From an uncultured Lachnospiraceae bacterium (GTDB lineage: Bacteria; Bacillota; Clostridia; Lachnospirales; Lachnospiraceae): a stretch of DNA of 64,000 nucleotides. Below, piece after piece: positions 34,313-51,080 of the stretch (position 1 is the stretch's first letter; each line of letters starts with the position of its first letter). Under the pieces are notes generated by a model. It worked only from the letters and a program-made list of their open reading frames with translations, made no database searches and was not told the DNA's origin. Made by a program: the position numbers and the translations under genes. Where the stretch lies: assembly GCA_947177165.1 (NCBI GenBank), contig CAMWTP010000018.1, positions 1-64,000 on the forward strand. The letters run 5' to 3'.

Positions 34313-34401
34313 GCCCACATCCCCTTTCCGATTTCAGGTTTTCTTTTTTTTATTTCTATTCATTTCTTTTCATTTCTTTTCATTTCCGATCTCCAGCCAT
34401 C

Positions 34402-36172: not shown

Positions 36173-37861
36173 TTATTTTGCGTCTGCCGTAAACTGTGTC
36201 ACCCGGAATATTACGAACTCCGCCGGACGCGAGGGCGCTATTCCGATGTTGCAGATCAGACGTCCGTTTTTGATATCGTCAGCCGTCATAGTCGACGCGC
36301 CGATCTCCACAAAGTAACTGTCCTCCGGGGCTGCACCTGCCAACATGCCGCTTCTCCACAAGGTATCCAGAAAAGAAGAGATCGTGATGCGGACCCTGGT
36401 CCACAGGGTCGTGTCATTTGGTTCAAATACGACCCAGTTTGTGTTTGCCTTGATACTCTCCTCCACATAGATAAACAGTCTCCTGACATTGACATACTTG
36501 AATGCGCTGTTGCTGCCTGCTGTCCTCGCTCCCCACACGCGGATCCCCTGCCCCGGAAGCCTGCGGATCAGGTTGACACCTGCCGGATTTAAGATATCCT
36601 GCTCTCCTTTATTGTAGTTCACGCTGAGATCAGAGCACATTACCGTCTCGTTTGCGGGCGCTTTGTGGACGCCTCTGGAAACATCCGTCCTCGCGTACAC
36701 TCCCATCACTGCACCGGACGGCGGGAAAAATCCCGTTTTCTGGGTAGAGCGGTCAAAACATTGTATCCATGGGTGGTACATCGCCGCATAGGTGCTGTCG
36801 ATCATCTCCCGGTATTCCAGCAATTCCTTTGTCCTGGTGTACTCCTGCGGCATATCCAGCACAGCGAAGCGGCTTCCCAGATTTTCACAGTGCGCCGTCA
36901 GCGAAACGACCACATCAGGAATCGTGATGCCCGGAACCGCGAGCATACTCACATGGTCATTCTCCACAAATGCCTGAATGCCGCTGCGGTTTCCCGGACC
37001 GTTGTCCTCCCCGATAAATGTCCCTGCGGTGACAGCGTTCATGTTCCCGTCGCTGCCGCCTGCCAGAACAATATCGCCGGAACTCTGATCTGTCCCAAAA
37101 ATCTGTGCCACTGGATTCCCAAGCCTGTCCAGCGGTTCCACACTGACACGCACCAGCTCGCTTTTCTGCAGCCTGTTCACAATATAATCCGGCGATGCCA
37201 CATTAAAGCTGAGTCCTGTGTACGTCTCGGTCTCCGTCTCATACCGAACCTGAATCTCCGTCCCGACAAGATACAGCAGTTTCCTTGGCACAAGCCCTGT
37301 GTCCACAGGCTCCTCCGCAAAAGTCTCCGCAAAAGTAATCACATTGTCATATATGGAGACAATGCGGTTGTATGCCGTTCCATACAACACGATATCGCCC
37401 TCCAGAAGCCCGTCCGCACTCTTTGCCCTGTATGCGGTTTCTCCTGTCTTCTCCAGAAGCTGGATTTTCTTCCTGGTATCCGACGCGATATGGAGCTGTA
37501 TGCGGTTTCCCCAGATTCCCTCATTTGCCGCGCTCACATGCAGAATCCCTTTGTCTGCTGCGGCCGCACAGGCACCGGGTGCCGCCACCCGCGCCACATA
37601 ACAGCGTGTGCCTCCGTTCGCAAAAAACTGCTCCACACTGCCTGCCAGATAGCGGTAGCTGCCGTGTGTGAACGCACTCAGATATCCGCCAAACTCCCTC
37701 AAAAATCCAGCAAAACTTGTGATCAGCGAAGGTGCGCCCCTGGTCGCTCCCCGCACAGCCATTCCCACAAACCCGGCTGTGCTCGTGCTGACGCCCTCAA
37801 TTGAACGCGGAGAATCGTCATACTCCTCCACATATACTCCCGGTGATAAATATTCAGCCAT
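36173..37861 (-). CDS. Contractile tail sheath protein
   Basis: Sheath subunit of 562 residues. The N terminus MAEYLSPGVYVEEYDDSPR is the classic sheath start that links neighbouring subunits, followed by STSTAGFVGMAVRG. The C-terminal domain holds RVWGARTA, YVNVRRLFIYVEESI, FEPND and IAPSRPAEFVIFRV, all conserved in tail sheath C-terminal domains. The middle region (about 150-320) is a variable insertion. Only one sheath gene is present, whereas Photorhabdus-type systems have up to three. It follows the PAAR-like gene by about 40 bases. Confidence 0.96.
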   Translation of the reverse strand: MAEYLSPGVYVEEYDDSPRSIEGVSTSTAGFVGMAVRGATRGAPSLITSFAGFLREFGGYLSAFTHGSYRYLAGSVEQFFANGGTRCYVARVAAPGACAAAADKGILHVSAANEGIWGNRIQLHIASDTRKKIQLLEKTGETAYRAKSADGLLEGDIVLYGTAYNRIVSIYDNVITFAETFAEEPVDTGLVPRKLLYLVGTEIQVRYETETETYTGLSFNVASPDYIVNRLQKSELVRVSVEPLDRLGNPVAQIFGTDQSSGDIVLAGGSDGNMNAVTAGTFIGEDNGPGNRSGIQAFVENDHVSMLAVPGITIPDVVVSLTAHCENLGSRFAVLDMPQEYTRTKELLEYREMIDSTYAAMYHPWIQCFDRSTQKTGFFPPSGAVMGVYARTDVSRGVHKAPANETVMCSDLSVNYNKGEQDILNPAGVNLIRRLPGQGIRVWGARTAGSNSAFKYVNVRRLFIYVEESIKANTNWVVFEPNDTTLWTRVRITISSFLDTLWRSGMLAGAAPEDSYFVEIGASTMTADDIKNGRLICNIGIAPSRPAEFVIFRVTQFTADAK

Positions 37862-37900: not shown

Positions 37901-38290
37901 TTATGAAACAACCACTGTCTTCTGTCCCGCATTGATGATGCCGAGCGTGCCCCCGTAACTGCATACGGCGGCGGCATCATTGGTCAGACATGGTTTCCCC
38001 TCCGCCAGACATACGGCCTGGGTTGGAATCCATGTACCTGCAACTGCCGGAACACAGGGCTGCGGTGTCAATACTCCCAGTGCGGCAGCAGTCGCTGAAG
38101 CCACCTGCGGATTTGCGAGCGAGGAACACATACCAAAACCCGCAATATTGACATTCGGGGCGGAATCCTGTATTGTTGCCACTGGCTTTCCCTCCGCCAG
38201 CACAGTGCTCTGCGATGTGACAGAAAGACTGGCCGGGACTGTGCCAAACGGACACCGCAGCATCGCTCCTGTAACTACAATCACCCCCAT
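37901..38290 (-). CDS. PAAR-like spike tip protein (DUF4280)
   Basis: Protein of 129 residues with two similar halves: VVTGAMLRCPFGTVPASL ... STVLAEGKPVATIQDSAPNV, then CVPAVAGTWIPTQAVCLAEG and CSYGGTLGIINAG. This is the DUF4280 PAAR-like fold, which sharpens the spike and binds a metal through Cys residues (family knowledge). Its ATG overlaps the stop of the upstream 883-residue gene by one base (TGATG), which couples the tip to the exported coiled-coil protein. It is placed before the sheath rather than with the hub and spike. Confidence 0.9.
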   Translation of the reverse strand: MGVIVVTGAMLRCPFGTVPASLSVTSQSTVLAEGKPVATIQDSAPNVNIAGFGMCSSLANPQVASATAAALGVLTPQPCVPAVAGTWIPTQAVCLAEGKPCLTNDAAAVCSYGGTLGIINAGQKTVVVS

Positions 38291-40941
38291 CAGTACCCTC
38301 CTCTCTCCAATAATTCTGAAAGTATTTCCTGTGACCGCCCAACCACGCTGTCATTTACAAGCACAGAGTACTCTGTGCCAGAAATATCACAAATATGACA
38401 GTCAAACTGCTCTTCTATAAAAGATTGCGGAACGTATAAAACACTGGAAAACCCTGCCGGGCTGTCCATATAAATTGTTTCACCCGCCTCGTTTTCTACA
38501 GTTTCACGAAACGCCGTAAATCTGTAAAAGTACCTGCCCCTTGACAGGACAGCATTCATCCTGGTGTCACTCCAGACATATCGATACCCAAGATACGCCG
38601 CAAGGATATCCACCGGCACATAGGTCTCCTCACCCTGCTTTTTTGACACGAACACAGCACCAGAACCAGTCTGTCCCAGTGCGGCCGCCATCCCCTGCGC
38701 AAGCGCCTGTACAGGTTCTGCACCTGTCTCCTGCCCAAAATCCCCCAGCGCAATGAGCGCCGCCGCCAGCTCCTCCTGCGGGACACCCGGCAGACCGTCC
38801 AGCGAAAGCTGTTCCGATAACAAACGCTCCAATGAGAAATTCCCGTCCTCGTCAAGCAGCGCATCGATTCCCAGCGCGAAGGCAATCACATTCCCGGTCT
38901 CCTGAACTGACAGTTCCCCCGACAGGCTGGTATTGACAGCGCTCCCGGAAACAGCCGCCTCAATCTGTTCCTGGAATCCCTGATACGCGTTCACGCCCTC
39001 AAGTTCTGATTTTGCAAGAAGCTTCTGATACACTTCCTTCGATGCCTCCAGTGCAAGTGCAGAACCGTCATCCAGCATCGAGGTCAGCAGCTCCATATCA
39101 CTCTCCAGCAGGGCATATGCGGCATCGCTGGTATCGCCCTCCGCCAGCAGGCTTAAGATCTCGCGCTTGCACGCCATGATACTGGCAGCCTGACTGTCCG
39201 CCGGAATACCAGCCTGGAGACTGGCGATCTCCGCCTCCATCCGGCTGAACTCTGCCTGCAGCGCCGCATTCTGCGGATCCTCTGCGATCTGCTGCTGCAT
39301 CTCCTCCCTCTGCTGTATCCGTTCTGTCAACCGTTCCTCAAAGGCACCCTCCGAAATGCCTGTCTTCGCATCGATGTCCGCTATTTTCGCGTCAATCCTC
39401 TTTGCGGTATCCAGATCCAGGTTGTCGAGCGCCCGCAGCTTCTGTTCCTGCAAATCCGCCTTCTGTTCATACAGGGTCTGCTCAGCAGCAGTGACGTCCT
39501 CCTCCCTGATATTGGACAGCAGACTGTTCAACCAGTCCACATAGGCATCCACACCGTCCTGATACGACCGCTGGTAATCATCTGTCCTGATCACGGTACG
39601 AAACTTTGCCGCATCCTGTATTCTGAGAAGAATGTATTTCCGCGCTTCCTCCGCCTCCTGCCTGTCCACTTTTGCCTGTATCAGAAACTGCAGCTCACTC
39701 CGCGCCGCATTCGCATCCGCCATATCCTCCTGCATTCTGCGCCGCAGCGCTGCGTGCGACACATCCTGGGAAACCAGTGTGGTGTACTGCTGCGTCACAC
39801 CGCCTGACAGTCCGATGCCGTACTTCACATCCGCCGCATCAATTAACTCGTCCAAAAAAACGAGTTCCTCCTGCCGGCTGACGATCCGGCCGCTGCTGAT
39901 ATTGTCCAGATACTGCAGTTTCTGATTCTGTTCATCACAGCCGGAATAATTTGTCCCCTCCGCATTTGCGATCATACTTTCCGAGAGGGTATACTCCGTC
40001 TCGGAGAGCACCGTACTTCCCTTTGCGAGCATACTGCCCTGCGCCTCGGTCAGACTCTCCGCAGCCGCATACCGGCTGTCACCGATTGCCGTGAGAAGAC
40101 TGTCATCGAGTTCCAGCTCACCGTCAGAGTCTGTCACATCCGCAATGTCCTCCTGCAGTGAGGAGAGTCTGCTGTCAACTGTCGCGAGCACAGCCGCCCT
40201 CCGCGCATAATCCACCTTTTCCATCACCCGGAGCACCGTCTGCGTTTCCCTGCTGTCCGCCCCGTTTGCCGCAAGCTCATTGTAATACCCCTGCAAGGCC
40301 TGCAGCTGTGCGTCACACCGGTCAGTCATATCCGACTGCACCTGCGATGCGAAGAAATCCCGCACGAAATTGCGGTTGCGCACCATGGTCTTCGTGCTGC
40401 TGCCGGATTCCCGCATCATATCATACTGCATTTTCAGCGCCTCCAGCTCCGGCATATACTCCAGATCATACACGTCTGAGATATCAAAAATGCACACCGG
40501 CGCATTCGTCTCAAAGCTGTAGGTAATCCCGTCCGACTTCGTGTGATGCGTGAAATATAGTCCCCGGATCTCACTCTCGTCAACAATCTTTCCCGCTGAC
40601 GTAATATCCTCTATGGAGCCTGCATCGCTGATGTCAAGCCACATTCCTCCGGCAAGCTCCGACTTGTAATACCGCCTGCTTTGCCCGGAAGCAGATGCCG
40701 AATCCAGCGCGATCGCATAGATCTCCTCATTCAGCGAATGCAGATAGATCAAGTGTGTACCGATCGCAAGCGTTGAATTTTCTATGGAACCTGGCTCAAT
40801 ATGTATGGCATCCTCTGTGCGGAAGATCGCTGCCGCAGCCGTTCGCAGCTGCCACACCGCTGCCAGCGCTGCCGACAGGCCGGCGATTACGGCCAGCCAG
40901 CGCCTGAAGGCATCATATTTTCTCCTGTCATATCCTGTCAT
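38290..40941 (-). CDS. Membrane-anchored coiled-coil protein with CuAO_N-like C terminus
   Basis: Protein of 883 residues. A basic N terminus and one hydrophobic helix (about residues 12-30) anchor or export it. Residues 40-150 are beta-rich. From about 180 to 690 the chain is helical with many heptad-like Ala/Glu/Gln stretches. The last 115 residues (VPVDILAAYLGYRYVWSDTR ... VLYVPQSFIEEQF) resemble the copper amine oxidase N-terminal stalk domain common in Clostridia surface proteins. The start is the ATG seven bases after GAGAGG. It is coupled to the PAAR-like gene. A long extracytoplasmic stalk linked to the particle is an inference; no enzyme motif was found. Confidence 0.75.
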   Translation of the reverse strand: MTGYDRRKYDAFRRWLAVIAGLSAALAAVWQLRTAAAAIFRTEDAIHIEPGSIENSTLAIGTHLIYLHSLNEEIYAIALDSASASGQSRRYYKSELAGGMWLDISDAGSIEDITSAGKIVDESEIRGLYFTHHTKSDGITYSFETNAPVCIFDISDVYDLEYMPELEALKMQYDMMRESGSSTKTMVRNRNFVRDFFASQVQSDMTDRCDAQLQALQGYYNELAANGADSRETQTVLRVMEKVDYARRAAVLATVDSRLSSLQEDIADVTDSDGELELDDSLLTAIGDSRYAAAESLTEAQGSMLAKGSTVLSETEYTLSESMIANAEGTNYSGCDEQNQKLQYLDNISSGRIVSRQEELVFLDELIDAADVKYGIGLSGGVTQQYTTLVSQDVSHAALRRRMQEDMADANAARSELQFLIQAKVDRQEAEEARKYILLRIQDAAKFRTVIRTDDYQRSYQDGVDAYVDWLNSLLSNIREEDVTAAEQTLYEQKADLQEQKLRALDNLDLDTAKRIDAKIADIDAKTGISEGAFEERLTERIQQREEMQQQIAEDPQNAALQAEFSRMEAEIASLQAGIPADSQAASIMACKREILSLLAEGDTSDAAYALLESDMELLTSMLDDGSALALEASKEVYQKLLAKSELEGVNAYQGFQEQIEAAVSGSAVNTSLSGELSVQETGNVIAFALGIDALLDEDGNFSLERLLSEQLSLDGLPGVPQEELAAALIALGDFGQETGAEPVQALAQGMAAALGQTGSGAVFVSKKQGEETYVPVDILAAYLGYRYVWSDTRMNAVLSRGRYFYRFTAFRETVENEAGETIYMDSPAGFSSVLYVPQSFIEEQFDCHICDISGTEYSVLVNDSVVGRSQEILSELLERGGY

Positions 40942-40996
40942 ACCGCGTCCTCTCACATATTAATACAATCCAACTTTACACAAATCATATGATGCT

Positions 40997-43072
40997 CTAT
41001 TCTCCCACTGTCTCCTCCACTGTGATCGAAGCTGTCGCAACAGCAAAATTCCCCTGATATAACAGCGTCCCTGACTGACCATAGAACACTGCCTGCAGCT
41101 GGGACAGATCGCCGACCAGCAGAGACAAGTACCGGAATTCCTGATCGACTGGAATCAATTCCTCACCAGACACAGGCATTCCATCCCTGTTTTCCAGACG
41201 GTAGTATGCGATCGGCTCCCCGTTTTTGGGTGTCAGGGAGAGTGTCACCAGACCGGTAGTGCTGTCCAGGCTGTAGGCGTATGCTGCAACTGTCCGCACG
41301 GTACTCTCCTGCACCAGCGTGTAGCCGCCCCTGATCTCGAGCACATCCTGGTACACCGCCGCATCGATCTCGCACACATCCACCAATTCCTGTTCCTGAT
41401 ACAGATACAGCCTCACACTCTCCGTCTTGTCAAGATTCAGTGCCAGATGTTCCAACATGCTCTCCACCCCGGTTTTGGCACCAACCTGCTCCCCATTGAC
41501 ATACAGTGCAAAGTGTGTGATCTCCACAGAACCGTCCACAAAGTAATCTTCCGGAATACTGACCCCCAGACGGAAGAGATTGTCCTCCACCGCATACTCA
41601 ATATAGTAGTAGGCCTTCCCCTTCACCTCGTCGGCGAGAAAACTGTTCCCTCCCTGCGCGGCAGTCATATTGATGTCCGTGCCCTCCAGAAACGCTGTGA
41701 TCCCCCCGCAGGTCAGCCTGTCATACGCATACAAAAGTTTACTGTACTCTCCCAGAAGTTCAAGCTCTGCAAGCTCCTGCGCCTCATACTCCTGCTGAAT
41801 CTCCGACAGCTCATCGTAGGTAAGGCTTCCAAGCCTGTTGAGTTCCAGCCCCTTCCGCAAGTCCTGCGCCAGTTCCTCTCTCGCCTGCACCGCGTCGGAA
41901 TACGCGATCTGCGTTGTCTTCACTGTCTCAAAATCATTTCGGACTGTCTGTGTCAGTTCCTCGCGCGCAGACTGCTGTTCCCGCACCGCATCCGCATACT
42001 CCAGCGCACCGGAATACAGTGCGTAAGGATCATCCTCCACATACCTCGAACCCGCAACAGCCCCCTTGAACCATTCCTTGTTGATTCGTATGAATAAGAT
42101 CCGTATCTTCCCTTCCCACGGCGCATCGATGTCTGTCAGCATTTGACTGTAGTCCTTCCTGAAAGCCGAACTGTCAATTGCGTCCCCGTTCAGCGCCTGC
42201 TGTATGTATGGTTCAATGCGGTTCATTTTGCTCCCATACTGATTCCGCATCATGCTCTTCATCATGTTCAGACTCTCGAGGGACAGCGCTGTCTCCAGCT
42301 TCGTCTCATAATATTTCTGGTCATTATCCAGCGTATATGTCACAAGCGTATCCAGTACGCTCCGCGGGATATCCGCCTCCACCAGGGGATTGAGAAAGGT
42401 ATACCCGGAAGTGACGTCGAGGTTGATGAGCTTTGACAACTGGCTCTTTTTATTCTCAAAGGTTCTCATCTGCAGGGAGAGCTCTGTCGTCAGCCTGCTC
42501 ACACGCTTCTGCATCTTGTCAATGTCAGCCTGCGATGCCTCCCCCGCAATCAGCCTGACCTGATTTCTCTTCAAGGTATCCTTCGCCGTCTCAAGACACT
42601 GCTCATAAAAATTGATTTTTTCCTGACAGATATAAGTCTCCGTATACAGCAGTGATACCTTCTCTTTGCCGGCGAGCATCTCATCCCGCAGCTGATGCTT
42701 CAACCCGTTCATCACACACGTGATCTGCAGAGGCTTATACTGCCACTCATACTCGTCCGCAAGCGTCGGTTTCTCCGGAAATTTGAAGGAGAGAAGCGGC
42801 GTCCACCGAAAAGTCGCCATATTCTTTTTCTTCATCTTGATGGACTTGACCGCAGTGGCATACTTGATCTCCTGAATCTCGATCTTATTCTGTATCTTCC
42901 TCAAATCTGCCGAGCTGGCAGTAGCCAGACTCTGCGCTTTCTGCAGCGGGAGCGTCCGCGACGCCGCCTCAGCGCGCATCGGGCAGAGGGACAGGACAGC
43001 CTGCACCAGCAATGCCGGAAACAAGATCCAGACCACTCTTTTCCGATTGTGATCCCGTACTCCAAATCTCAT
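40997..43072 (-). CDS. Secreted TolC-like coiled-coil protein
   Basis: Protein of 691 residues. A signal peptide ends ...MRAEAAS (about residue 38). Residues of about 40-440 form long helices (KINFYEQCLETAKDTLKRNQ, LIAGEASQADIDKMQKRVSR) in a pattern like one protomer of the TolC/OEP fold, including the duplicated arrangement (ELNRLGSLTYDELSEIQQEY). Residues 460-690 are beta-rich, Ig-like. In a bacterium with one membrane it cannot act as an outer-membrane channel, so a cell-wall-spanning structure is possible (inference). The ATG follows the upstream MORN gene stop at once; an overlapping GTG three codons earlier is the alternative. Confidence 0.72.
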   Translation of the reverse strand: MRFGVRDHNRKRVVWILFPALLVQAVLSLCPMRAEAASRTLPLQKAQSLATASSADLRKIQNKIEIQEIKYATAVKSIKMKKKNMATFRWTPLLSFKFPEKPTLADEYEWQYKPLQITCVMNGLKHQLRDEMLAGKEKVSLLYTETYICQEKINFYEQCLETAKDTLKRNQVRLIAGEASQADIDKMQKRVSRLTTELSLQMRTFENKKSQLSKLINLDVTSGYTFLNPLVEADIPRSVLDTLVTYTLDNDQKYYETKLETALSLESLNMMKSMMRNQYGSKMNRIEPYIQQALNGDAIDSSAFRKDYSQMLTDIDAPWEGKIRILFIRINKEWFKGAVAGSRYVEDDPYALYSGALEYADAVREQQSAREELTQTVRNDFETVKTTQIAYSDAVQAREELAQDLRKGLELNRLGSLTYDELSEIQQEYEAQELAELELLGEYSKLLYAYDRLTCGGITAFLEGTDINMTAAQGGNSFLADEVKGKAYYYIEYAVEDNLFRLGVSIPEDYFVDGSVEITHFALYVNGEQVGAKTGVESMLEHLALNLDKTESVRLYLYQEQELVDVCEIDAAVYQDVLEIRGGYTLVQESTVRTVAAYAYSLDSTTGLVTLSLTPKNGEPIAYYRLENRDGMPVSGEELIPVDQEFRYLSLLVGDLSQLQAVFYGQSGTLLYQGNFAVATASITVEETVGE

Positions 43073-43077
43073 TGTCC

Positions 43078-44175
43078 TCACGCCTCCATTCGGTAAAAGT
43101 CAAAACCGGCCCCCTTGTCCTTGCAGAAGAAGGTATACACCGTTCCGTCCTTCTCATACACATAGATGTATGCCTCATAGTCTCTGTCAAAATCAGAAAC
43201 TTCTGTCACATCGTCAAATACCGTGTCACTCCGAAACCCCGACTTTCCGTAAAGAACTTCGCTGCCTGCCGTCTCACAGCAGATATTGAGCGCCACCTCA
43301 TCCTCCGGCTCCAGACAGGTATTGCCCTCATAGACGGGCTCTCCCAGTACTTCCGGAAGCTGCGGAATCTGATCCATGTGTCTTCCCGCCAGATCGATCT
43401 CCCTCTTTAGCACATACAAACCTGATACCCGGAAGTCCTCATCCAGTGTATTGCTCCTGTCGGTGCCAAAATATACCGCATCGATCTCTTTCATATACAC
43501 GCAGTACACTTCGTCTCCCGTGTAAATTTCACGCTCTCCCAGATATCGGTCAGAAATCTCCACAGCACTTTTCCCGATCAACTCCCGGTAAAGAATCTGA
43601 TCATTCTGGAAAAATCCCTTATAAATTTCCTCCTGCGCCGCGCTGTACAGCGTCCCGTCTCCTTCCATATGTCCCTGATCGAATTGTCCGTCATACCACA
43701 GCGTCCCGTCCTCCCGATACAGCTTTCCCGCACCGTCGTAGAGATTATTCCGGAACGCCCCTTCATATGCAGGCAGCGCGTTCTGATGATAAATTGTTCC
43801 CTCGCCGTTATACGCATTGGCATCAAAATCGCCCTCGTACACCACCCGTCCCTGCGGATCGTACAAGGTGCCTTTTCCTTTCACCACACCGCGCTCCACG
43901 TCACCGATATACGCTGTATATCCGGATTTTCCGAGAATAACCACCTTCCCTGTCACAAATTTCAGGGGCAGCGCATTGTACCGGTAAGTCCTGTAGGCGA
44001 TCCCACTTCGAAGCTTCGCAGGCTTTGTGCTCCACAGAATGCACAGACAGCACACACTGATCAGCACCACCAGCGTCATGGCAAGCTTTCTGCTCACCTG
44101 CCAGATCAAAAAAGTACAGTAATCCGTCTCATCCTTCGGCCTCATGTCCAAAAACTGCGCCAAAAGCTTTTTCAC
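43078..44175 (-). CDS. Membrane-anchored MORN-repeat protein
   Basis: Protein of 365 residues. A hydrophobic helix at about 32-50 (MTLVVLISVCCLCILW) separates a short cytoplasmic N terminus from the rest. Residues of about 85-195 carry five MORN-type units (YEGDFDANAYNGEG, YEGAFRNNLYDGAG, YDGQFDQGHMEGDG, and partial ones). A C-terminal beta domain follows (ISDRYLGEREIYTGDEVY). MORN sheets bind proteins or lipids. The GTG start lies eight bases after GGAGG and overlaps the end region of the cyclase-like gene; a TTG two codons earlier is too near the site. A scaffold for the particle at the membrane is inferred. Confidence 0.78.
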   Translation of the reverse strand: MKKLLAQFLDMRPKDETDYCTFLIWQVSRKLAMTLVVLISVCCLCILWSTKPAKLRSGIAYRTYRYNALPLKFVTGKVVILGKSGYTAYIGDVERGVVKGKGTLYDPQGRVVYEGDFDANAYNGEGTIYHQNALPAYEGAFRNNLYDGAGKLYREDGTLWYDGQFDQGHMEGDGTLYSAAQEEIYKGFFQNDQILYRELIGKSAVEISDRYLGEREIYTGDEVYCVYMKEIDAVYFGTDRSNTLDEDFRVSGLYVLKREIDLAGRHMDQIPQLPEVLGEPVYEGNTCLEPEDEVALNICCETAGSEVLYGKSGFRSDTVFDDVTEVSDFDRDYEAYIYVYEKDGTVYTFFCKDKGAGFDFYRMEA

Positions 44176-44177
44176 AC

Positions 44178-46814
44178 TCAATCCCTCCAGAACAATTCAT
44201 GATGTCCCTCTCCGCTGCCCTCCTGATTCAGCCGCTCGTCGCAGGCAAATACATACCATCTGGCGATGCCGTCCCCGGGGCATTCCCTGACAATATCGGT
44301 AAATACGCTTCGCGCCGAATACAATTCATTGTCATAGTACAATTTTAACGCGCGCTCAAAACGCTCCCTGTTTTTCAGCTTTCCAAGCTTCTGCATCTGG
44401 GGGCATGCATCGAGAATCTCATACATCCAAAACGTCGTTCTCTCATCCTGCTCATCCTCCGATGTCACATAGCCGATCAGCCGCCCCTGCACCTGTTTCT
44501 GCACCTGCTCCCATGTCTGTCCCGTCACGACAACCCGCGCCCCGCTGCGCTTCAAGTCATCAATATAGCGGCTCAGGGTATCCATCTCCATCGACGTCAC
44601 GTAGGGGTATACCTGCTTGCTCCCGCCTGCGAGCCCGCAGCGGAACTGATCTGTGTGCAACAGGATAAAAGGATTTGTGTCATAGGTATCCTCGATCTGT
44701 TCCAACAACTCCTCCATACAGTCAATGCTGTATCTCACAGCGACCAGCGCGCTCTGTCCCTCTCCCGGAAAGATTACCTTGACATTTTCCAGATTGCTCC
44801 CGTCCTGCAGAAAAACTGCCTGGTCGGATTCCTTCTGTGCAAACAGCAGTTCCATAAGCTGGTTCACATACTGCACATACTGTCTCTGCAGCTTTCCTGT
44901 GAGCAGCGTATCCTTGTCAATCACCGAGATCATTCCCAGCGTCGCCGCTATCTGGACCGTCTCGCCGATCTCAATATCCTGCAGTTTTTCTCTCGCAAAC
45001 AAGCATTCGAAATTCTGGGGTGCATACTGATCAAGATAGTTGATCGTCTCATCATTTCTGTATTTCTGCACCAGCAGATTCCTGCACATGCGCTCCAATC
45101 CTGTCCACATCAATCCAAACTCATTGTCCGGCGCTCTCCGGCTGTCAATGTGATATTCCCCCCGCGACACCCGCTCCATCGCTGCGCACAGCACTCCGAT
45201 ATTTTGCCACTTATATCTCAAAAACAGTGCAATTGCCAGCATGATCAGCAGCCAGCCGGCAAACGCCGCGATGTAAAATGCCGCCATCGTCTTATCGTAT
45301 GCGCCCATTCCGTACAGCGGGACACGGGACACCAGGCAGGTCTGATCCGCCTCCTCCCCAATCCTGGAAACTGCCATGGCGTAGGAGATTCCGCTTACCT
45401 TGTCGATAAACTGCTGGTTCTCGCCCGTCAGGATACACTGCCGGAGCTTATCAAGCGTCAATGTATCGTAAAACGTGTCCGCCTGCCTGCCGTAAGGAGC
45501 CTCCTCCGAAAACAGGAACACAAGACCATCCGCATCACAGACAAGCTCCTCCCTCGTATAAAATGCCCGCTCTGAGTTTTTCATGACACTGTAGGAAAAC
45601 GTCTTCTCGACAAATTCCTGCTGCCTGGAGCCTTTATAATCCGCATAACGAATCGGCTCTGATTCCGCATTTTCCAGCAGCCTTTCCTTCTGTATCGTCA
45701 TGCAGGTGTCTGCCAGAAACATCTGCTGCTCCCGCTCCGTCCTGATTTCATGCATTCGGATTCCCACAACCGTCACGGCCAGCCAGATGCCGCTGAATGC
45801 CGCCAATGCCGCCATCGTCTGGTACAATAACCTTCTCGGCTTCCACACCAGATGCCAGAACAGTTCCAGCACAATCAATACCGCAATGTATGCCAATGTG
45901 TATATCAGAAACGGAAACCATAGGCTCCTTGCCTTTTCACCCATGGCAAGCGCTGTACAGTCGACCGCTTCCCCGTAAGCCCCGTCCTGCCCCACGATCA
46001 GCAGGATATCCCTGTTGTCATGGGACATCAGCACCGCACTGTTCTGCGCTTTTTCTGAATACTGTATATTCCACACATCACCCATATCCCTGAACGTATA
46101 ACCGCCCAATCCATTCTCATACAGATAGGTAATATCCCTGCTGTCTTTCACCTGATAGTACAGGCCGTTTTCATCTGCGAGAAAAAAGACAACGTCCTCC
46201 AGCTCCCGCCGCTGCATCGTGCCATCCTCGACAATATAATAAATGTGGTTGTCGTGGGAAAGCGTGTACATCCCCTCTTTCCCCCAGCAGACTGTCGTCG
46301 GTATGAAGTCCGTCTCAAAGCGCACCCGCCTGTCACTGTTCCCCTCCTGGATATACAGCAGAATGTTTTCCGTCTGCTGGTCGACTCCCGTCACGTACAG
46401 CCTGCCCTCACGCACCTGAAAATCAGTCAGTGTCACATCTTCCGCAATCTCTTTCCTCCAGATGTGCTGAAACCCTTCCGCCCCCGCATCTTTCCACCAT
46501 ACGCTGAAATACTGCTTACCGTCCTGATACCACATCTGCGCGATATAAACCTTCCCCGCCTCATACCGGCAGAAGAGCTGCATCTCCTCCGCCTCGCTCC
46601 GACAGCGGTACATTGCCAACGGTGTACCGTCGGCATCCAACTGATAGACATAGACACCCGTCTGTGTTTCTCCCGCAGCATAGATCTTTCCATCCGAATC
46701 TCTCGCGATGTCCTCCACGTTAAAACCGCTGGAAGGCAAATAAAATCTGACTCCAAAAACACCAATTCCGATATAGATGACAATTGCTGTCAGCATCCTG
46801 AACTTACTCTTCAA
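44178..46814 (-). CDS. Membrane receptor with degenerate class III cyclase domain
   Basis: Protein of 878 residues. TM1 is at about 8-24; an outer propeller-like domain (SSGFNVEDIARDSDGKIYAA ... repeated blades) reaches about 295; TM2 and TM3 at 298-322 and 330-352; a second outer domain to 508; TM4 at 509-533; then a HAMP-like linker (MERVSRGEYHIDSRRAPDN). From about 600 to 815 the chain follows the class III adenylate cyclase fold, but the metal-binding Asp positions are lost (VQIAATLGMISV; SNLENVKVIF), so it is probably catalytically dead. The tail FERALKLYYDNELYSARSVF is the usual cyclase C-terminal helix pair. The start is a TTG six bases after AGGAGG. It is likely a sensor for the CIS. 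Confidence 0.72.
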   Translation of the reverse strand: MKSKFRMLTAIVIYIGIGVFGVRFYLPSSGFNVEDIARDSDGKIYAAGETQTGVYVYQLDADGTPLAMYRCRSEAEEMQLFCRYEAGKVYIAQMWYQDGKQYFSVWWKDAGAEGFQHIWRKEIAEDVTLTDFQVREGRLYVTGVDQQTENILLYIQEGNSDRRVRFETDFIPTTVCWGKEGMYTLSHDNHIYYIVEDGTMQRRELEDVVFFLADENGLYYQVKDSRDITYLYENGLGGYTFRDMGDVWNIQYSEKAQNSAVLMSHDNRDILLIVGQDGAYGEAVDCTALAMGEKARSLWFPFLIYTLAYIAVLIVLELFWHLVWKPRRLLYQTMAALAAFSGIWLAVTVVGIRMHEIRTEREQQMFLADTCMTIQKERLLENAESEPIRYADYKGSRQQEFVEKTFSYSVMKNSERAFYTREELVCDADGLVFLFSEEAPYGRQADTFYDTLTLDKLRQCILTGENQQFIDKVSGISYAMAVSRIGEEADQTCLVSRVPLYGMGAYDKTMAAFYIAAFAGWLLIMLAIALFLRYKWQNIGVLCAAMERVSRGEYHIDSRRAPDNEFGLMWTGLERMCRNLLVQKYRNDETINYLDQYAPQNFECLFAREKLQDIEIGETVQIAATLGMISVIDKDTLLTGKLQRQYVQYVNQLMELLFAQKESDQAVFLQDGSNLENVKVIFPGEGQSALVAVRYSIDCMEELLEQIEDTYDTNPFILLHTDQFRCGLAGGSKQVYPYVTSMEMDTLSRYIDDLKRSGARVVVTGQTWEQVQKQVQGRLIGYVTSEDEQDERTTFWMYEILDACPQMQKLGKLKNRERFERALKLYYDNELYSARSVFTDIVRECPGDGIARWYVFACDERLNQEGSGEGHHELFWRD

Positions 46815-46902
46815 AAACTGCCTCCTTTTGCCGTTCACAGCCTCCCGGAGTCTCTCCTGCCGCAAAAGCAGGTGCAAGAGAGATTCCGGGAGTCCATGTT
46901 CC

Positions 46903-47781
46903 CTACTGCAGCAGCGACTCCGTCCCGATCGTGTCCAGTGAACCGTCAAACAGCTTCCAGAAAGAAACATCTCCCAAAAACAGACTGCCCGCAGCCATAA
47001 GCACCATCAGACAGACCAGGACAATGCAGATTCCGGACAACAGGCGGTATAGCCAGTCCCATTCTGACACGGCAAGCCTTCCGCGCCGTTTTCTCCCTGC
47101 GCTGCCCGTCCTGCCCAGCAGCCTGATATCCCTGTACAGCTGAATCAATTCCTGATATGCTTCCCTCGCCAGCTTCTTTTCCAACAGTGCGGCAGCCTGC
47201 ATTCTGGCCCCATCGCCTTTTCCGACAGGCTCCTCAAGCCGGAGCAGACACAAAATCTCGTCCGCGCACGCAATCACATTATCCCTCTCACATATGGAAT
47301 CATCATATTCTGACAAGTCAAGCTGAAATCCAAACTGAATACTTCCGTCAGGCGCGGCGTGAGCCTGCCCCTGACTCAATATAAGATACACCACCGCAGG
47401 CGGCAGCTTCGAAACCATACACTGTTCCACAAGCGCAAGCCACACCTGTTGGCGGGTACAGAACCCTTCTCTGATGCTGTTCAGATAAAATTTCCGCAGC
47501 GGCCGCTCCCTCACATAGGGAAACACAAACCCCGCATTTTCACTCTGCATGAAAGTCTCCTCGCAGTACGTGTCCGCATTTTCCAGCAATGCCCGCGCGA
47601 TCCTGCGTTCTTTCACAATCCATATCGTCTTGTAAGGCGCGTCCGGTTCCTCCTGTTCCCGGCACACATACACACTGTTTGCCTCCCCTTCCAGAACCTC
47701 CCTGATGACCTCATACACCTTTCTGCCCGTGCGCAGAACCATTTTCCCGCCATACACAGCCTCACCCCCTGTCGATCTCAC
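46903..47781 (-). CDS. Membrane-anchored protein with possible pseudokinase domain
   Basis: Protein of 292 residues. Residues 15-180 loosely follow a protein kinase plan: VYEVIREVLEGEANSVYVCRE, YKTIWIVKERRIA, FVFPYVRERPLRKFYL as hinge, and LPPAVVYLILSQGQAHAAPD, FGFQLDLSEYD where catalytic and metal loops would be; the catalytic HRD and DFG motifs are absent. A TM helix at 247-268 places this domain in the cytoplasm. The GTG start overlaps the preceding stop (GTGA), suggesting coupling; an ATG 13 codons in is the alternative. The kinase relation is tentative. It lies before the cyclase-like receptor, with which it may signal. Confidence 0.6.
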   Translation of the reverse strand: MRSTGGEAVYGGKMVLRTGRKVYEVIREVLEGEANSVYVCREQEEPDAPYKTIWIVKERRIARALLENADTYCEETFMQSENAGFVFPYVRERPLRKFYLNSIREGFCTRQQVWLALVEQCMVSKLPPAVVYLILSQGQAHAAPDGSIQFGFQLDLSEYDDSICERDNVIACADEILCLLRLEEPVGKGDGARMQAAALLEKKLAREAYQELIQLYRDIRLLGRTGSAGRKRRGRLAVSEWDWLYRLLSGICIVLVCLMVLMAAGSLFLGDVSFWKLFDGSLDTIGTESLLQ

Positions 47782-49550
47782 TTCCTGCTCACGACTGCAT
47801 ATACATAGGTAGAAATCTTCGGCATATCCGTACAGTAAATGTAAATCTCATAGACACCTTCCTTCGCGGGTGCCGTGTACATACCGTCAGCCGTAATCTC
47901 ACCGCTTCCCGGCTCCGTCAGCTCATAACTGAGCCGGCATGGCTGCAGATTATGAAAACTTATATTGAAATAATAACTCTCCTTTGCCTGCAGGCGCACC
48001 GTCGGCGTCTCCGGTATGATCGACCGGTTTTCCTCCTCCTGCAGCTCGTCCGAATCCTTCGCGGAGACAAACCTGACTGCTACCCAGTTCAGCTGAAGCA
48101 CGATGCTCTTCTGTTCCCCCAAAAGCTTTGCCGCCACCTGGAAACTGCCCTTGTCATTCCGCACACGCACCGCCGTCTCCACCTGCATGCACTCGTGAAT
48201 ACCGAACAGCTCCGGATTGCCGAATATCGTATTTCTGTGATCACCGAAATACTCCGTCCCGACCTCGACATACACATTCCCCTTGCCAAGGCCATGCATG
48301 ATCTCCTCGGAAAGACACACGTCTCCCTTCTTCATATTGACATCGAGCGGAATTTCCAGCCTGCCGCTCGCCATAGGCAGCTGCATCTCGTCGCGTCTTG
48401 TACCATTTTGGGTGCCGGCACTGTCCCCGGATGTCCTGTTCTCAGTCCCGTTCGCCCCGCTGCCGCCAAAATACGCCATCAGCGCCTGACGCTGCCCCGC
48501 TTTGCCCGGCGTGATGATATAGCGCTTCACACCCCGTTCCGTCACTCCGCTGACCAGACAGCTGATATCCGTGCGCAGCAATTGCAGTACAGCGATGCAG
48601 ACATCGCCGCTGTCAACCGTCCTCAGATTCCTGTCAAGGCTTGTCCTGCCAACCTCGCTTACCATCAGTGAAAAAGGCTGCTGATCCGACAACTTCAGCT
48701 TGAACTGAATCCCTGCTCCCGGCTCCACCTCATGTCCGCCGACTTGAAACTGCATGTCCTCCTTGCGGCACAGAACTGTTGTCTCCTCCGCATCCGTGTG
48801 ATCAACCGTGAGCCAGTAGTCCTTTCGCAGAATCTGTCCCTCCGGAAGCCAGAGCCCCTCGATGCCGATTTCGAGTTCATGTTTCCCGGAAACATCCGTG
48901 AGAGAAGGCATTTGCAGCTTTGCCTGAAAAGACAGTTCTTTCGCTTTTTCCGAATTTTTGCGGACCGCCGCCATCACTTTCACTGCGTGTCCCTTCGACA
49001 CCGTACACGGCATGCTGATCCATACGGTATAATCCGCATTGTCCAGAATCTTTTCCCGCAGGATCAAGTCCTCCACAGCCTCCTCCTGCTGTACTGACAC
49101 TCCGGAATCCTGCACATCCTCAAAATCCCTGACATACAGCTCATATCCCTCATCGATGCGGTTGCGCTCATACTCCTTCCCGCCCGTCCCGATATCGCCG
49201 CAGTACACATCATGAACCGCCTCCTCGCGATAGCGGATATAAAGCCCTGCGCGCTCGCTGTACAGGGTATCAAATCCCTCCAGCACTGACAGCTTCCTGA
49301 CCACGGACGCATCAACCACAATCTCCCTGCCAGCTCCGTCGATTGCCACGCCGCTTTCCACCAGAATGGACAGATCATCCAGAAGTACCACATTCAAACC
49401 GCAGACAATGCCGCTGCCAAACAGAATCCGGTTCAAAAAACGCCGCTTATTGTTCATGTATAACTGCTCTGCCTGAAAATCCGCCGAAGTCAGCAGTTTC
49501 CCTGCATAGTAGCGGTTTCTCTCAAAAGGAAATAACTGGTTATTTTTCAC
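47778..49550 (-). CDS. CIS-linked protein with YYAGKLLT-type N-terminal domain
   Basis: Protein of 590 residues and first gene of the CIS operon. The N terminus FERNRYYAGKLLTSADFQAEQ, then NNKRRFLNRILFGSGIVCGL, is a domain I know from phage-tail and CIS neighbourhoods (recalled, no precise name). Several beta-rich domains follow; a Gly/Thr/Asn-rich linker is near 380-400 and an Ig-like domain ends the chain (EITADGMYTAPAKEGVYEIY). There is no signal peptide or TM helix. The start is a GTG with GGAGGA six bases upstream; an ATG 11 codons earlier has only a weak site. It may be a baseplate-associated or surface-exposed particle protein. Confidence 0.7.
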   Translation of the reverse strand: MKNNQLFPFERNRYYAGKLLTSADFQAEQLYMNNKRRFLNRILFGSGIVCGLNVVLLDDLSILVESGVAIDGAGREIVVDASVVRKLSVLEGFDTLYSERAGLYIRYREEAVHDVYCGDIGTGGKEYERNRIDEGYELYVRDFEDVQDSGVSVQQEEAVEDLILREKILDNADYTVWISMPCTVSKGHAVKVMAAVRKNSEKAKELSFQAKLQMPSLTDVSGKHELEIGIEGLWLPEGQILRKDYWLTVDHTDAEETTVLCRKEDMQFQVGGHEVEPGAGIQFKLKLSDQQPFSLMVSEVGRTSLDRNLRTVDSGDVCIAVLQLLRTDISCLVSGVTERGVKRYIITPGKAGQRQALMAYFGGSGANGTENRTSGDSAGTQNGTRRDEMQLPMASGRLEIPLDVNMKKGDVCLSEEIMHGLGKGNVYVEVGTEYFGDHRNTIFGNPELFGIHECMQVETAVRVRNDKGSFQVAAKLLGEQKSIVLQLNWVAVRFVSAKDSDELQEEENRSIIPETPTVRLQAKESYYFNISFHNLQPCRLSYELTEPGSGEITADGMYTAPAKEGVYEIYIYCTDMPKISTYVYAVVSRK

Positions 49551-49600
49551 AGATCCTCCTCCATTGCTGCCAAAATTTTCCATTTTCCGTCACATTGTAT

Positions 49601-49702: not shown

Positions 49703-50500
49703 ATGCGCAAAACTTTTCCGTTAACACTTAACAGCATTCTGTTCATCGCCGGCATCGGTTTTCTGTTGATCCAGCGTCCGATTTGGTGTGCTGTATGTTT
49801 TTTGCTTGCCTCACTCTTGTTTATATGGACGTTCAAGGCAGAACAGACTGCCGGGCCGCCTCCCGACGAAATGCCATCGGTGGACACAGATGCGCTGAAT
49901 GCCTCGCTGACACTCCGGGTCAAGGAACTCACAGACTCCAATCAGCTGCTTTCCCGGGAAAACCAGCAGCTCACCGACGAGCTGAACCTATATCGAAACA
50001 GACATCCCAATCCGCTCTATACCTGTCCCCTCACCTCTGCTCTTCCAGTCTGTCTGGACACGTTCTTCACCGGCTACCTGAACAGTCGTGCGGACCTCGC
50101 GGAAAGCGGAAGGCTGCATGTCGACTACACCTGCTCTGTCCCCGACGCAGTCACCTATCTGTCACAGTCAGCGCTCACCCTGATCTGCAGCAATGTCTTT
50201 GACAACATGCTAAAGTTCAGCCCAAGAGCGGAATCAGTCTACATCCGGCTCACTGCCATCGAAAACGACAGTCTGATCATCTTCAAAAATGAAGGCGACG
50301 GGCCAGAGGAATCGGAACTGGACAGACTCTTCGACCTGAACTATCAGGGCACCAACAAGAAATCCGGGTGCGGTCTTGGTCTGGCGCAGGTAAAGGCACT
50401 GACCGACGACTTTGGCGCCCACGCCTGGGCAAAGAGCGCCAATGGCTCCGGATTCGCCCTGTACATACGACTGCCGGAACAGCCCTCTGCATCATATTAA
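49703..50500 (+). CDS. Membrane histidine-kinase-like ATPase without phospho-acceptor
   Basis: Protein of 265 residues. Two TM helices (about 8-24 and 26-43) precede a coiled coil (65-100) and a HATPase_c domain with N box (SNVFDNMLKFSP at 163-174), G1-like NEGDG (196-200) and G2 GCGLGL (222-227). The stretch where a dimerisation/phospho-acceptor helix should be has no His in an H-box context. It may be a GHKL regulator that acts on another protein, or a partner of a full kinase elsewhere. AAGGAGG precedes the ATG. It starts the plus-strand operon that includes the AAA+ ATPase. No response regulator is encoded in the window. Confidence 0.75.
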   Translation: MRKTFPLTLNSILFIAGIGFLLIQRPIWCAVCFLLASLLFIWTFKAEQTAGPPPDEMPSVDTDALNASLTLRVKELTDSNQLLSRENQQLTDELNLYRNRHPNPLYTCPLTSALPVCLDTFFTGYLNSRADLAESGRLHVDYTCSVPDAVTYLSQSALTLICSNVFDNMLKFSPRAESVYIRLTAIENDSLIIFKNEGDGPEESELDRLFDLNYQGTNKKSGCGLGLAQVKALTDDFGAHAWAKSANGSGFALYIRLPEQPSASY

Positions 50501-50521
50501 TAATCACCAGGAGAAACCAAT

Positions 50522-51040: not shown

Positions 51041-51080
51041 TTATATATCGATTGCATATTAAGGAGGGCAAAACATCGAT

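Follow-up and report, generated by a model that had tools for sequence, protein, structure and literature searches.

The window, i.e. the whole stretch of 64,000 nt of DNA analysed here, carries a contractile injection system (CIS) with particle genes of the eCIS type, and directly before its tip gene lies a block of six genes whose conserved order and co-occurrence with CIS genes exceed chance. We propose that this module, inherited with the CIS in gut Clostridia, probably docks the CIS at the membrane and wall of its own producer and triggers it there.

Structure of the locus

All six open reading frames (ORFs) that had been predicted ahead of a PAAR-like tip were confirmed at positions 38290-49583 of the minus strand, in the order YAGK-PsKin-CYC-MORN-TolC-STALK (Table 1). 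They are followed downstream by the DUF4280/PAAR-type gene, with E=2.5e-30 to its family, and then by the sheath gene. The original prediction described the genes as overlapping or nearly touching. When the first start codons are used, CYC/MORN and MORN/TolC each overlap by 4 nt, and the stop codon of STALK overlaps the start codon of the tip gene by one base (TGATG); with the starts supported by homologues, however, YAGK and PsKin are about 35 nt apart and PsKin and CYC about 88 nt apart, with no overlap.

Table 1 Features of the CIS locus in the window
Feature	Position	Strand	Remarks
IUN, exported nucleoside-hydrolase-like protein	18732..20051	+	fused to MORN elsewhere
Rest of CIS operon	20046..34318	-	
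Protein of no assigned family	20046-20822	-	
Pvc16_N	20834-21415	-	
Tail_P2_I	21431-22537	-	
Wedge	22633-24855	-	
Baseplate J	24845-27790	-	
gp25	27794-28213	-	
Spike	28223-29044	-	
Hub	29059-30240	-	
Two tandem paralogues	about 30215-31400	-	
Protein of no assigned family	31382-34318	-	
Second tube protein	34402-34995	-	PF06841 6.5e-5, below Pfam cut-off
DUF6760 protein	35010-35225	-	PF20546 7.5e-17
Tube protein	35650-36144	-	PF06841 1.8e-32
Contractile sheath	36173..37861	-	PF04984 5.7e-19, PF17482 2.4e-17
PAAR-like tip, DUF4280	37901..38290	-	PF14107 2.5e-30
STALK, exported, proline-poor, C-terminal Cu_amine_oxidN1 domain	38290..40956	-	PF07833 7.5e-7
TolC-like exported protein, extra C-terminal region about 470-694	40997..43081	-	OEP 3.8e-4, below cut-off
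MORN, single-pass membrane protein, MORN repeats and C-terminal region	43078..44181	-	PF02493 8.4e-7; TM 33-51
CYC, four-TM receptor	44178..46814	-	longest ORF starts 46970, homologues support about 46814
PsKin, cytosolic probable pseudokinase domain, TM near C-terminus	46903..47742	-	longest ORF starts 47781, homologues support 47742
YAGK, probable CIS13/crown-type CIS particle protein	47778..49583	-	homologues support start near 49550
Divergent neighbours of the block	49703..53147	+	
HATPase protein, two TM	49703-50500	+	
SH3_3 protein, N-terminal hydrophobic segment	50522-51040	+	
CIS AAA ATPase	51081-53147	+	

The eCIS-type particle genes, encoding sheath, tube, spike, gp25, baseplate J, Tail_P2_I, Pvc16_N and the AAA ATPase, are all present in this one locus. 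Relatives of the divergent neighbours adjoin YAGK in a minority of loci (HK 10/80, SH3 8/80, AAA 5/80). A Pfam scan of 20 operon proteins, some of them without any match, revealed neither a lysis family nor a separate tail-fibre family. As the sheath is encoded by a single phage-type gene (PF04984, PF17482) and no TssB/C or TssJ/L/M family was detected among the operon proteins scanned, a classical T6SS with a TssB/TssC pair and a TssJLM complex was rejected.

Conservation of the block and its association with CIS genes

In the species genomes of GTDB, 454 stretches containing YAGK relatives were confirmed, and the best 80 of the 454 were examined. In these 80 loci the gene order was kept at 74/74 testable YAGK/PsKin, 68/68 PsKin/CYC, 63/63 CYC/MORN, 57/58 MORN/TolC and 52/54 TolC/STALK junctions, and the gaps were no longer than 50 nt in 70/78, 67/72, 55/64, 51/60 and 52/54 cases, respectively.

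Co-occurrence was surveyed in 144 relatives with profiles of YAGK, PsKin, CYC, TolC, STALK and the sheath. Strong PsKin (77 bits or more) was found in 25 genomes, 24 of which have a sheath match; in the remaining one, G027, CIS baseplate genes adjoin PsKin. Strong TolC matches, of at least 350 bits, were present in 14 of the 144 genomes, and strong STALK matches, with a best piece of at least 172 bits, in 15; all these genomes are sheath-positive, and the TolC and STALK matches in further genomes reached 23 bits or less. Among 391 Clostridia genomes, five have PsKin of at least 238 bits and all five belong to the 15 in which Pvc16_N was found; in the other 32 genomes with a PsKin match the score does not exceed 92 bits. 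The PsKin matches examined outside CIS (L202-L210, 59-89 bits) turned out to be other membrane proteins, with LysM in three and PKD domains in four of the seven that were scanned with Pfam.

In the genomes searched, an exclusive association with CIS genes is thus borne out for strong PsKin, TolC and STALK, but not for YAGK-like and CYC-like proteins, relatives of which also occur away from CIS genes (G101, G093). In the 144 relatives, YAGK-like proteins are found without a sheath match in five genomes besides G027, and the one in G101 is full-length (264 bits) with no CIS gene within 20 kb. The CYC profile matches 52/144 genomes, mostly through the HAMP region, with scores of up to 70 bits outside CIS genomes.

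Within the same family, the window lineage (clade A) has a sister lineage of CIS (clade B), in which YAGK, PsKin, MORN and CYC are rearranged and located at the other end of the operon; YAGK lies directly before PsKin in both lineages. In one case, G033, a single genome carries both types of CIS. Neither TolC nor STALK could be recognised in clade B, so the putative wall-spanning parts are not required there. The original prediction named related CIS operons of the same family without the six genes as a finding that would refute it; clade B, with four of them and no recognisable counterpart of the other two, speaks against the prediction in part. PsKin is not indispensable either: G475 lacks it but retains CYC, MORN, TolC and a weak STALK. 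In a more distant CIS lineage of Clostridia, the DNA read at seven loci contained none of the five genes for membrane or exported proteins. In the sheath tree the carriers fall on one side, apart from this module-free lineage, and the core module genes accompany the CIS through rearrangements of the operon.

YAGK probably belongs to the particle

The YYAGKLLT-type N-terminus noted before was seen in the alignment of YAGK. The N-terminal domain (residues 20-160 only) matches NCBIfam CIS13_fam (NF053767) with E=4.2e-28 and 98.7 bits, compared with an equivalog cut-off of 370 bits; YAGK was therefore rejected as a CIS13 equivalog and has a domain in common with this family. A search of the PDB sequences with the YAGK profile gave All3314, the crown protein of tCIS, as the best match, which is not significant (E=0.086). 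YAGK had been counted as a member of the envelope module; in view of the CIS13_fam domain it is probably a part of the CIS particle, in which it may hold the tail-fibre position. Its constant adjacency to PsKin can be taken as a pointer to a physical partnership of the module with the particle.

PsKin and CYC resemble signalling enzymes that have lost catalytic residues

PsKin carries a conserved IGTESLLQ motif in its outer tail, and the IGT tail is present in 72/76 sequences. The positive-inside rule, which is obeyed in 75/76 sequences with one tie, places the kinase-like domain in the cytosol. Comparison by hhalign of a two-lineage PsKin alignment with 20 kinases gave 93.1% (3.1e-7); the other sets gave 81.8% (clade B), 46.3% (an 11-row set) and 5.6% (clade A alone), and the controls 0.3% or less. 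The best match of the PsKin profile to the PDB sequences was also a kinase, although a weak one (E=0.0067), and no significant Pfam kinase match was obtained. In the window sequence the VAIK lysine and the HRD aspartate are both replaced. PsKin had been described as a possible transmembrane (TM) pseudokinase; the C-terminal TM segment and the profile similarity agree with this, Pfam does not add to it, and we consider PsKin to be probably a tail-anchored pseudokinase.

CYC comprises four TM segments, two outer regions, a cytosolic degenerate class III cyclase domain and a TPR-like end, and the cyclase-like domain was found in CIS-linked relatives. Both metal-binding aspartates are kept in 0/66 clade A relatives, and in fact 66/66 have neither; both were present in the aligned columns in 0/10 sequences of clade B or G124 and in 0/3 further CIS-linked CYC sequences. 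The second CYC of L073 (clade B) has the first aspartate, with an Asp shifted by one residue from the position of the second, and a cyclase paralogue outside CIS, used as control (L085), has both. An active class III nucleotidyl cyclase was rejected because these aspartates are lost. The predicted four-TM cyclase-like receptor is thus correct in its layout, but, judged from these columns, it is a pseudocyclase. A match of CYC to YukB in the PDB sequence search (E=0.039) covers the TM segments and was dismissed as an effect of composition.

MORN, IUN and the exported proteins

As had been predicted, MORN has one TM segment and MORN repeats. The charge-based evidence on its topology is weak, with 35 N-in, 22 ties and 5 N-out (n=62). 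In PHROGs, MORN matches one family of no known function (1.4e-7), and no match was found for the other five module proteins. MORN is fused to IUN in the CIS operons of G016 (422 bits) and G019, which links the IUN gene of the window to the module. Strong IUN homologues were detected in 7/144 genomes, 7/7 of them sheath-positive, and in some carriers IUN is likely to belong to the module as an accessory.

The assignment of a secreted TolC-like protein is compatible with our results: the OEP score is 20.8 bits in the window, below the Pfam cut-off of 22, and 32.9 bits, above it, in the CIS-linked relative from G475. The protein also contains a weak internal repeat (37.6%, 3.4e-4), and its profile yielded no more than weak matches among the PDB sequences. 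The inside of a TolC-type channel is about 3.5 nm wide and a CIS tube is about 10 nm, hence the TolC-like protein cannot simply be the conduit for firing. In the literature searched, contractile injection systems and TolC are mentioned together in one paper, on a plant-pathogen genome.

For STALK, the Cu_amine_oxidN1 domain was found at the C-terminus of 8/10 members scanned. The window protein begins with a hydrophobic, export-signal-like stretch and has no segment above the TM threshold, which some relatives pass at the N-terminus. Its middle part is proline-poor and gave 0.175 in a crude heptad test against a shuffle mean of 0.244; since the value did not exceed the shuffles, the predicted coiled coil is unproven, and of the description as a TM coiled-coil protein the export-signal-like N-terminus stands. 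A signal-peptidase site pattern occurs in 55/55 TolC and 38/41 STALK sequences and, for want of a chance baseline, supports export weakly.

A candidate dock and trigger, and other readings

It had been proposed that the six proteins together form an anchor and trigger. The tie of the block to CIS genes and the membrane or exported nature of its proteins suit this role, but YAGK probably has to be assigned to the particle. We favour, as rather likely from the gene content, a CIS that would be docked at the producer's own cytoplasmic membrane and triggered by an envelope sensor. YAGK would be located on the particle at a fibre or crown position, and PsKin, MORN and CYC would form the membrane dock. 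CYC may sense an outside cue by its two outer regions and pass the signal through a HAMP-like segment to the pseudocyclase, which would act by binding or change of shape and not by making cAMP or cGMP. The pseudokinase may relay this signal, or may retain the particle by way of YAGK until it is released. In the window lineage, the exported TolC-like protein and STALK would extend the dock into or across the wall, IUN would be an outer accessory of it, and the sheath would fire outward through the producer's envelope in a T6SS-like manner.

More tentatively, these CIS may represent a wall-crossing, T6SS-like class of Clostridia, with a dock and trigger made from dead signalling enzymes and with the TolC-like protein and STALK passing through the peptidoglycan. 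Here the pseudocyclase receptor would contact the tail-anchored pseudokinase bound to the particle crown, and the sheath would be released.

A self-directed checkpoint, in which the module senses envelope stress and lets cytosolic particles discharge into the membrane of the cell that made them, as a form of regulated cell death, appears unlikely to us. As most Lachnospiraceae do not grow as filaments, it is less obvious what self-killing would bring, and the exported TolC-like protein, STALK and a module of several proteins seem more than is needed. CYC is nevertheless laid out like a stress or ligand receptor, the operon scan yielded no separate fibre or lysis family, and firing of this kind has been proposed for CisA of Streptomyces, a bitopic protein needed for contraction in a Gram-positive organism (excerpt of PMC12237407). 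Still less probable is a released eCIS whose module would serve regulation, export or release (e.g. lysis timing) instead of docking: its particle genes are indeed of the eCIS type (Pvc16_N, DUF4280, AAA) and known eCIS are freed by lysis (excerpt of PMC11566945), but no lysis family was found among the operon proteins scanned, the related lineage showed no module in the DNA read at its seven loci, and the 74/74 YAGK-PsKin adjacency points to a partnership with the particle. An independent envelope or transport operon (TolC-like export plus receptor) merely lying beside the CIS operon is hardly credible, for although TolC-like and receptor genes serve other purposes in other settings and YAGK-like and CYC-like proteins can be found apart from CIS genes, strong PsKin, TolC and STALK were confined to genomes with CIS genes among those searched, the core genes remain with the CIS through rearrangement and the sheath tree has all carriers on one side; an ordinary TolC efflux or signalling operon was likewise rejected because of the CIS linkage.

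Comparison with known systems

Little is understood of the coupling between the binding of a target and the firing of a CIS (excerpt of PMC13314943), and CIS gene clusters have received little study in Gram-positive organisms (excerpt of PMC10066040). The favoured reading of a docked CIS offers a whole candidate dock and trigger, with its receptor, that gut and rumen Clostridia inherit together with the particle. A pseudokinase and a pseudocyclase jointly recruited as components of an injection machine would, to our knowledge, be new. In the literature searched we found no description of this, nor any paper that mentions contractile injection systems together with MORN or with a pseudokinase; one paper mentions them together with Lachnospiraceae, the CIS phrase being confined to its reference list. 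The records of two carriers, Lachnospiraceae bacterium AD3010 and XBB2008, are not labelled as MAGs; cultures may therefore exist, which would make the question testable.

EssB/YukC of type VIIb secretion, a Firmicutes secretion system, combines a pseudokinase domain, a TM segment and an outer part. PsKin, with its probable pseudokinase domain, is alike in layout, but its outer part is a short tail, and it gave no match to the EssB/YukC Pfam family. The T6SSiv and Bacteroidales CIS have diderm hosts. In T6SSiv, Cis13 is proposed to help anchoring to the inner membrane (excerpt of PMC12210884); YAGK shares a domain with NCBIfam CIS13_fam, which is likened to the T6SSiv Cis13 (Aasi_0556) by name only. 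The thylakoid tCIS of Anabaena is also membrane-anchored, and its cage is surrounded by a crown (Cis19/All3314) which YAGK resembles below significance; its membrane is held, however, by the baseplate/fibre extensions of Cis12 and Cis13 and not by the crown, and the accessible text describes no dedicated membrane module (excerpt of PMC8894136).

The original prediction suggested a membrane-linked CIS type without precedent, but examples from single-membrane organisms have been published. In haloarchaea, extended T6SS-mode particles are found on the cytoplasmic membrane, and one CIS clade is always linked to a gene for an uncharacterised membrane protein, the putative anchor being Hbor_38620 (excerpt of PMC11566945). 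The window CIS is similar in its single-membrane host and in the tie of membrane-protein genes to one CIS clade, here seen from the genes alone. On the other hand, Hbor_38620 is one six-TM protein with a cytosolic domain of about 150 residues, whereas the window encodes several proteins; the archaeal host has an S-layer instead of a peptidoglycan wall; and no pseudokinase, pseudocyclase, MORN, TolC-like or STALK protein is described in the accessible text of that report (PMC11566945). By hydropathy scan the module contains no such six-TM protein, CYC having at most five segments, and we set the two apart by this description. CisA of Streptomyces coelicolor is likewise a membrane protein encoded with a Gram-positive CIS and needed for firing; its outer domain is suggested to sense a signal, and it has a conserved C-terminal substrate-binding-like domain (excerpt of PMC12237407). 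It is, however, one bitopic protein whose cytosolic part is largely unstructured, in contrast to the several folded partners and exported proteins encoded in the window. Given these published membrane-linked CIS (PMC11566945, PMC12237407), the module would mark one CIS lineage and its mechanism rather than an unprecedented type.

Organization of the locus and order of the six genes

The window comes from contig 18 of a draft genome (G000) of 5.95 Mb, 95.5% complete with 7.0% contamination, and the relatives retrieved were Lachnospiraceae MAGs and other Clostridia records. In the operon of the contractile injection system (CIS), the tip gene, which encodes a DUF4280 (PAAR-like) protein, comes directly after the six genes named YAGK, PsKin, CYC, MORN, TolC and STALK; the opposite strand carries an AAA ATPase gene. 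Because a 4-nt overlap links CYC to MORN and another MORN to TolC, assuming first start codons, and one base is common to the stop codon of STALK and the start codon of the tip gene, the proposal that STALK is translationally coupled to the tip is sound. Two further sheath genes are present on contigs 81 and 63 of G000 (L001, L003); the stretches around them (L061, L062) showed no homologues of the genes used as CIS queries.

Features of the window and of two loci in other genomes (clade A, the window's CIS lineage; clade B, its sister lineage)
Feature	Coordinates	Strand	Content
CIS operon	49583 down to 20046	minus	Six genes, then DUF4280 tip, sheath, tubes, hub, spike, gp25, baseplate J, wedge, Tail_P2_I, Pvc16_N
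Six-gene module	38290-49583	minus	YAGK, PsKin, CYC, MORN, TolC, STALK
Tandem paralogues	30215-31400	minus	Two genes of about 200 aa each; the clade B loci read have one gene here, about 230 aa long
IUN	18732-20051	plus	Nucleoside-hydrolase-like
DUF5716 + DUF5717 pair	12763-17779		Two proteins whose function is unknown, encoded next to the CIS locus on its downstream side; present in genome G007 too
HATPase protein	49703-50500		Two TM segments; Pfam shows no phospho-acceptor domain; may be a further degenerate signalling enzyme here
Receptor pair in L073 (CIS locus of genome G131)	14369-19640		Two adjacent four-TM cyclase-like receptors, the second keeping more of the metal site
YAGK-like gene in L084 (genome G101)	9681-11378		Full length

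One family alignment per gene was made from the relatives retrieved around sheath matches. A YAGK profile search of the GTDB genomes gave 454 confirmed stretches, the best 80 of which were examined; a junction was counted if 1.2 kb or more of the contig remained beyond it, and the next gene of the series had to lie within 600 nt. Among these best 80 of 454 loci, PsKin followed YAGK in 74 of 74 testable junctions, CYC followed PsKin in 68 of 68, MORN followed CYC in 63 of 63, TolC followed MORN in 57 of 58 and STALK followed TolC in 52 of 54, counts that describe the window's lineage and not all CIS because the 80 loci were picked by similarity to the window's YAGK. The MORN/TolC exception (L125) has a putative lipoprotein gene between the two, with TolC starting 786 nt on; in the two TolC/STALK exceptions (L099, L102) Pvc16 comes after TolC and no STALK was recognised.

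Linkage of the gene families to CIS genes

The survey of 144 relatives covered the sheath and five of the six families (YAGK, PsKin, CYC, TolC and STALK). The sheath query matched 28 of the 144, 27 of them strongly. Strong matches to TolC (350 bits or more) were obtained in 14 of these relatives and to STALK in 15 (at least 172 bits for the best piece); all of these genomes are sheath-positive, and further genomes gave 23 bits or less for either family. For PsKin (77 bits or more), 24 of the 25 strongly matching genomes were sheath-positive; in the remaining one (G027), CIS baseplate genes adjoin YAGK and PsKin. Three of the 27 strong sheath genomes had no strong PsKin: one is 66% complete (G008), one gave a fragment only (G043), and one (G083; L045, L068) carries an orphan clade A-like sheath gene (63% identity), with no other CIS gene recognised in the 20 kb flanking it on each side.

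The tie to CIS is looser for the YAGK and CYC families. The YAGK profile matched 31 of the 144 genomes, six of them sheath-negative (G027, which has CIS genes, G095, G101, G116, G127 and G137); G101 has no sheath match, and no CIS gene was found in the 20 kb read around its YAGK-like gene. The CYC profile matched 52 of the 144 genomes, mostly weakly and in the HAMP region, and matches of 193 bits or more came from sheath-positive genomes only. In a second sample of 391 evenly drawn Clostridia genomes, 15 of which are marked as CIS genomes by Pvc16_N, PsKin matched 37; five matches reached 238 bits or more, all among the 15, and the others were 92 bits or less. The linkage to CIS is stronger than the original prediction could show.

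Related CIS lineages

We built a maximum-likelihood tree of 34 sheaths, in which a branch with 100/100 support splits 30 sheaths (15 of clade A, 11 of clade B, those of G124, G475 and G404, and the orphan of G083) from four of a lineage free of the module; short contigs meant that the full module was not read for every one of the 30. Clade A is one group if the orphan is set aside, and clade B is a single clade (99/98). The clade B sheaths, 52-55% identical to the window's, come from the window's family and one other, and G033 carries a clade B system beside a clade A one. Where contigs were readable, the clade B order was mostly Tail_P2_I-YAGK-PsKin-MORN-Pvc16-(G258)-PAAR-CYC; neither TolC nor STALK was recognised in the clade B loci read.

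Mixed forms of the module were observed in three genomes of other families. G124 has TolC (352 bits) and STALK (175 bits); in G475 these score 93 and 27 bits, and no PsKin was detectable in the whole genome. G404 has the order YAGK-PsKin-CYC-MORN-TolC-Pvc16-PAAR, in which PsKin (36 bits) and TolC (16 bits) are both weak and the TolC candidate has no OEP match. The simplest story would be that TolC was present early and then lost in clade B.

A more distant CIS lineage of Clostridia (L194, L197, L211, L212, L217-L224), comprising six f50 genomes and G340, is Pvc16-positive throughout; no PsKin, CYC, MORN, TolC or STALK was found in the DNA read, which covered both operon ends in the six f50 genomes and one in G340. 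Whole-genome PsKin searches were empty at an E of 1 for G278, G433 and G168 and gave only a PKD-type relative for G340. The operons of the six f50 genomes end at the 3' side with two or three tandem YAGK-like genes (18-45 bits). With clade B lacking recognised TolC and STALK, and the distant lineage, in the DNA read, the five membrane and exported genes, the six-gene set is less complete among related CIS than had been claimed.

Properties of the encoded proteins

YAGK had been counted as an envelope protein. Its N-terminus carries a CIS13_fam domain (98.7 bits, 4.2e-28; equivalog level is reached at 370 bits), and it resembles the tCIS protein All3314 non-significantly (E=0.086). In tCIS, All3314 (Cis19) makes up the crown that surrounds the cage, and it is Cis12 and Cis13 that hold the membrane (PMC8894136). 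YAGK therefore probably belongs to the particle, in fibre or crown position, rather than to the envelope.

PsKin consists of a soluble domain, cytosolic by flank charges in 75 of 76 members with one tie, a TM segment (251-269) and a short tail whose last residues are IGTESLLQ or a close variant; the IGT motif is present in 72 of the 76 full-length members of clade A and in 16 of 16 aligned members of both lineages. In profile comparison with 20 kinases of the relatives, where unrelated controls gave 0.3% or less, the 16-row two-lineage alignment reached 93.1% (E=3.1e-7), clade B alone 81.8%, an 11-row mix 46.3% and clade A alone only 5.6%. In this comparison both the VAIK lysine and the HRD aspartate are replaced in the window's PsKin; Pfam gave no significant kinase match for the members scanned. 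On this evidence the TM pseudokinase originally thought possible is retained as probable. Outside CIS, other Clostridia families also have pseudokinase-like membrane proteins (L202-L210), in which LysM or PKD domains follow the TM segment.

Of 65 full-length CYC proteins, 58 have four TM segments. HAMP was found in 7 of 8 CIS-linked relatives scanned, and two of the eight, L078 and L076, exceed the Guanylate_cyc cut-off (28.2 and 22.1 against 21.9 bits); the cyclase assignment in clade A rests on alignment through relatives, because among 48 clade A members scanned Guanylate_cyc was listed for none and HAMP for one. The cyclase domain is clear (4.1e-16) in L085, a paralogue that is not near CIS genes and that keeps the two metal aspartates. 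The two structural glycines are kept in 64 and 65 of 66 clade A members, but neither metal column holds Asp in any of the 66, and both aspartates occur in 0 of 10 clade B or G124 proteins and 0 of 3 further CIS-linked ones. The window's predicted four-TM cyclase-like receptor is therefore, judged from its residues, a pseudocyclase. This status is less sure for the second CYC of L073 (clade B), in which the first Asp is retained and a further Asp lies one residue away from the second column; the receptor pair there suggests a duplication of the sensor.

MORN, as expected, has one TM segment and MORN repeats. In the CIS operons of G016 and G019 it runs on into a domain 58-59% identical to the IUN product (422 bits in G016), which matches PF01156 below the cut-off (E=1.7e-5) and has an N-terminal hydrophobic segment. 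Strong IUN homologues were found in 7 of 144 genomes, all sheath-positive; the gene abuts the last gene of the operon in G000 and G007, lies about 4 kb away in G034 and G032 and on a separate contig in G008, and most module carriers are without it. Such a fusion points to joint action of the two parts. As free IUN seems to be exported, it also suggests an outward orientation of the MORN repeats, a topology that the charge rule supports weakly (35 N-in, 22 ties, 5 N-out).

The secreted TolC-like protein was also upheld: it is exported and OEP-like, below the Pfam cut-off in the window and above it in the G475 relative, and its first and second parts align weakly (37.6%, 3.4e-4; control pairs 0.1-0.2%), as expected of the TolC tandem repeat. 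For STALK, export, few prolines and a C-terminal Cu_amine_oxidN1 domain hold, and the TM coiled coil is not established.

Proposed mechanism and comparison with known systems

We propose that the membrane proteins would form a dock for the particle, contacted via YAGK; CYC would sense an outside signal, the dead enzyme domains would relay it by contact, and in clade A the exported proteins would carry the structure into the wall. Docking, contact and the direction of firing are what we infer here. The main rival is a CisA-like checkpoint, with firing into the cell's own membrane. TolC as the firing channel is disfavoured, because the CIS tube is wider than a TolC-type pore; the protein more likely serves as a strut, sensor or guide.

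The literature searched, including the accessible parts of the eCIS surveys (PMC8213781, PMC10598620) and excluding subscription papers and the supplementary tables of CIS databases, contained no description of the six-gene module. Membrane-docked CIS are already known, namely T6SS, tCIS, haloarchaeal T6SS and the Streptomyces CIS with CisA. In haloarchaeal T6SS, a gene for a membrane protein invariably accompanies one CIS clade (PMC11566945), Cis13 is proposed as an anchoring aid in T6SSiv (PMC12210884), and the Streptomyces CIS with CisA is another membrane-linked CIS (PMC12237407). The finding is real and its linkage firmer, but the set is less complete and, with such systems published (PMC11566945, PMC12237407), less without precedent than the new CIS type originally predicted; on these sources, the module, itself without an earlier description in the literature searched, would be a variant of the membrane-docked CIS already known.
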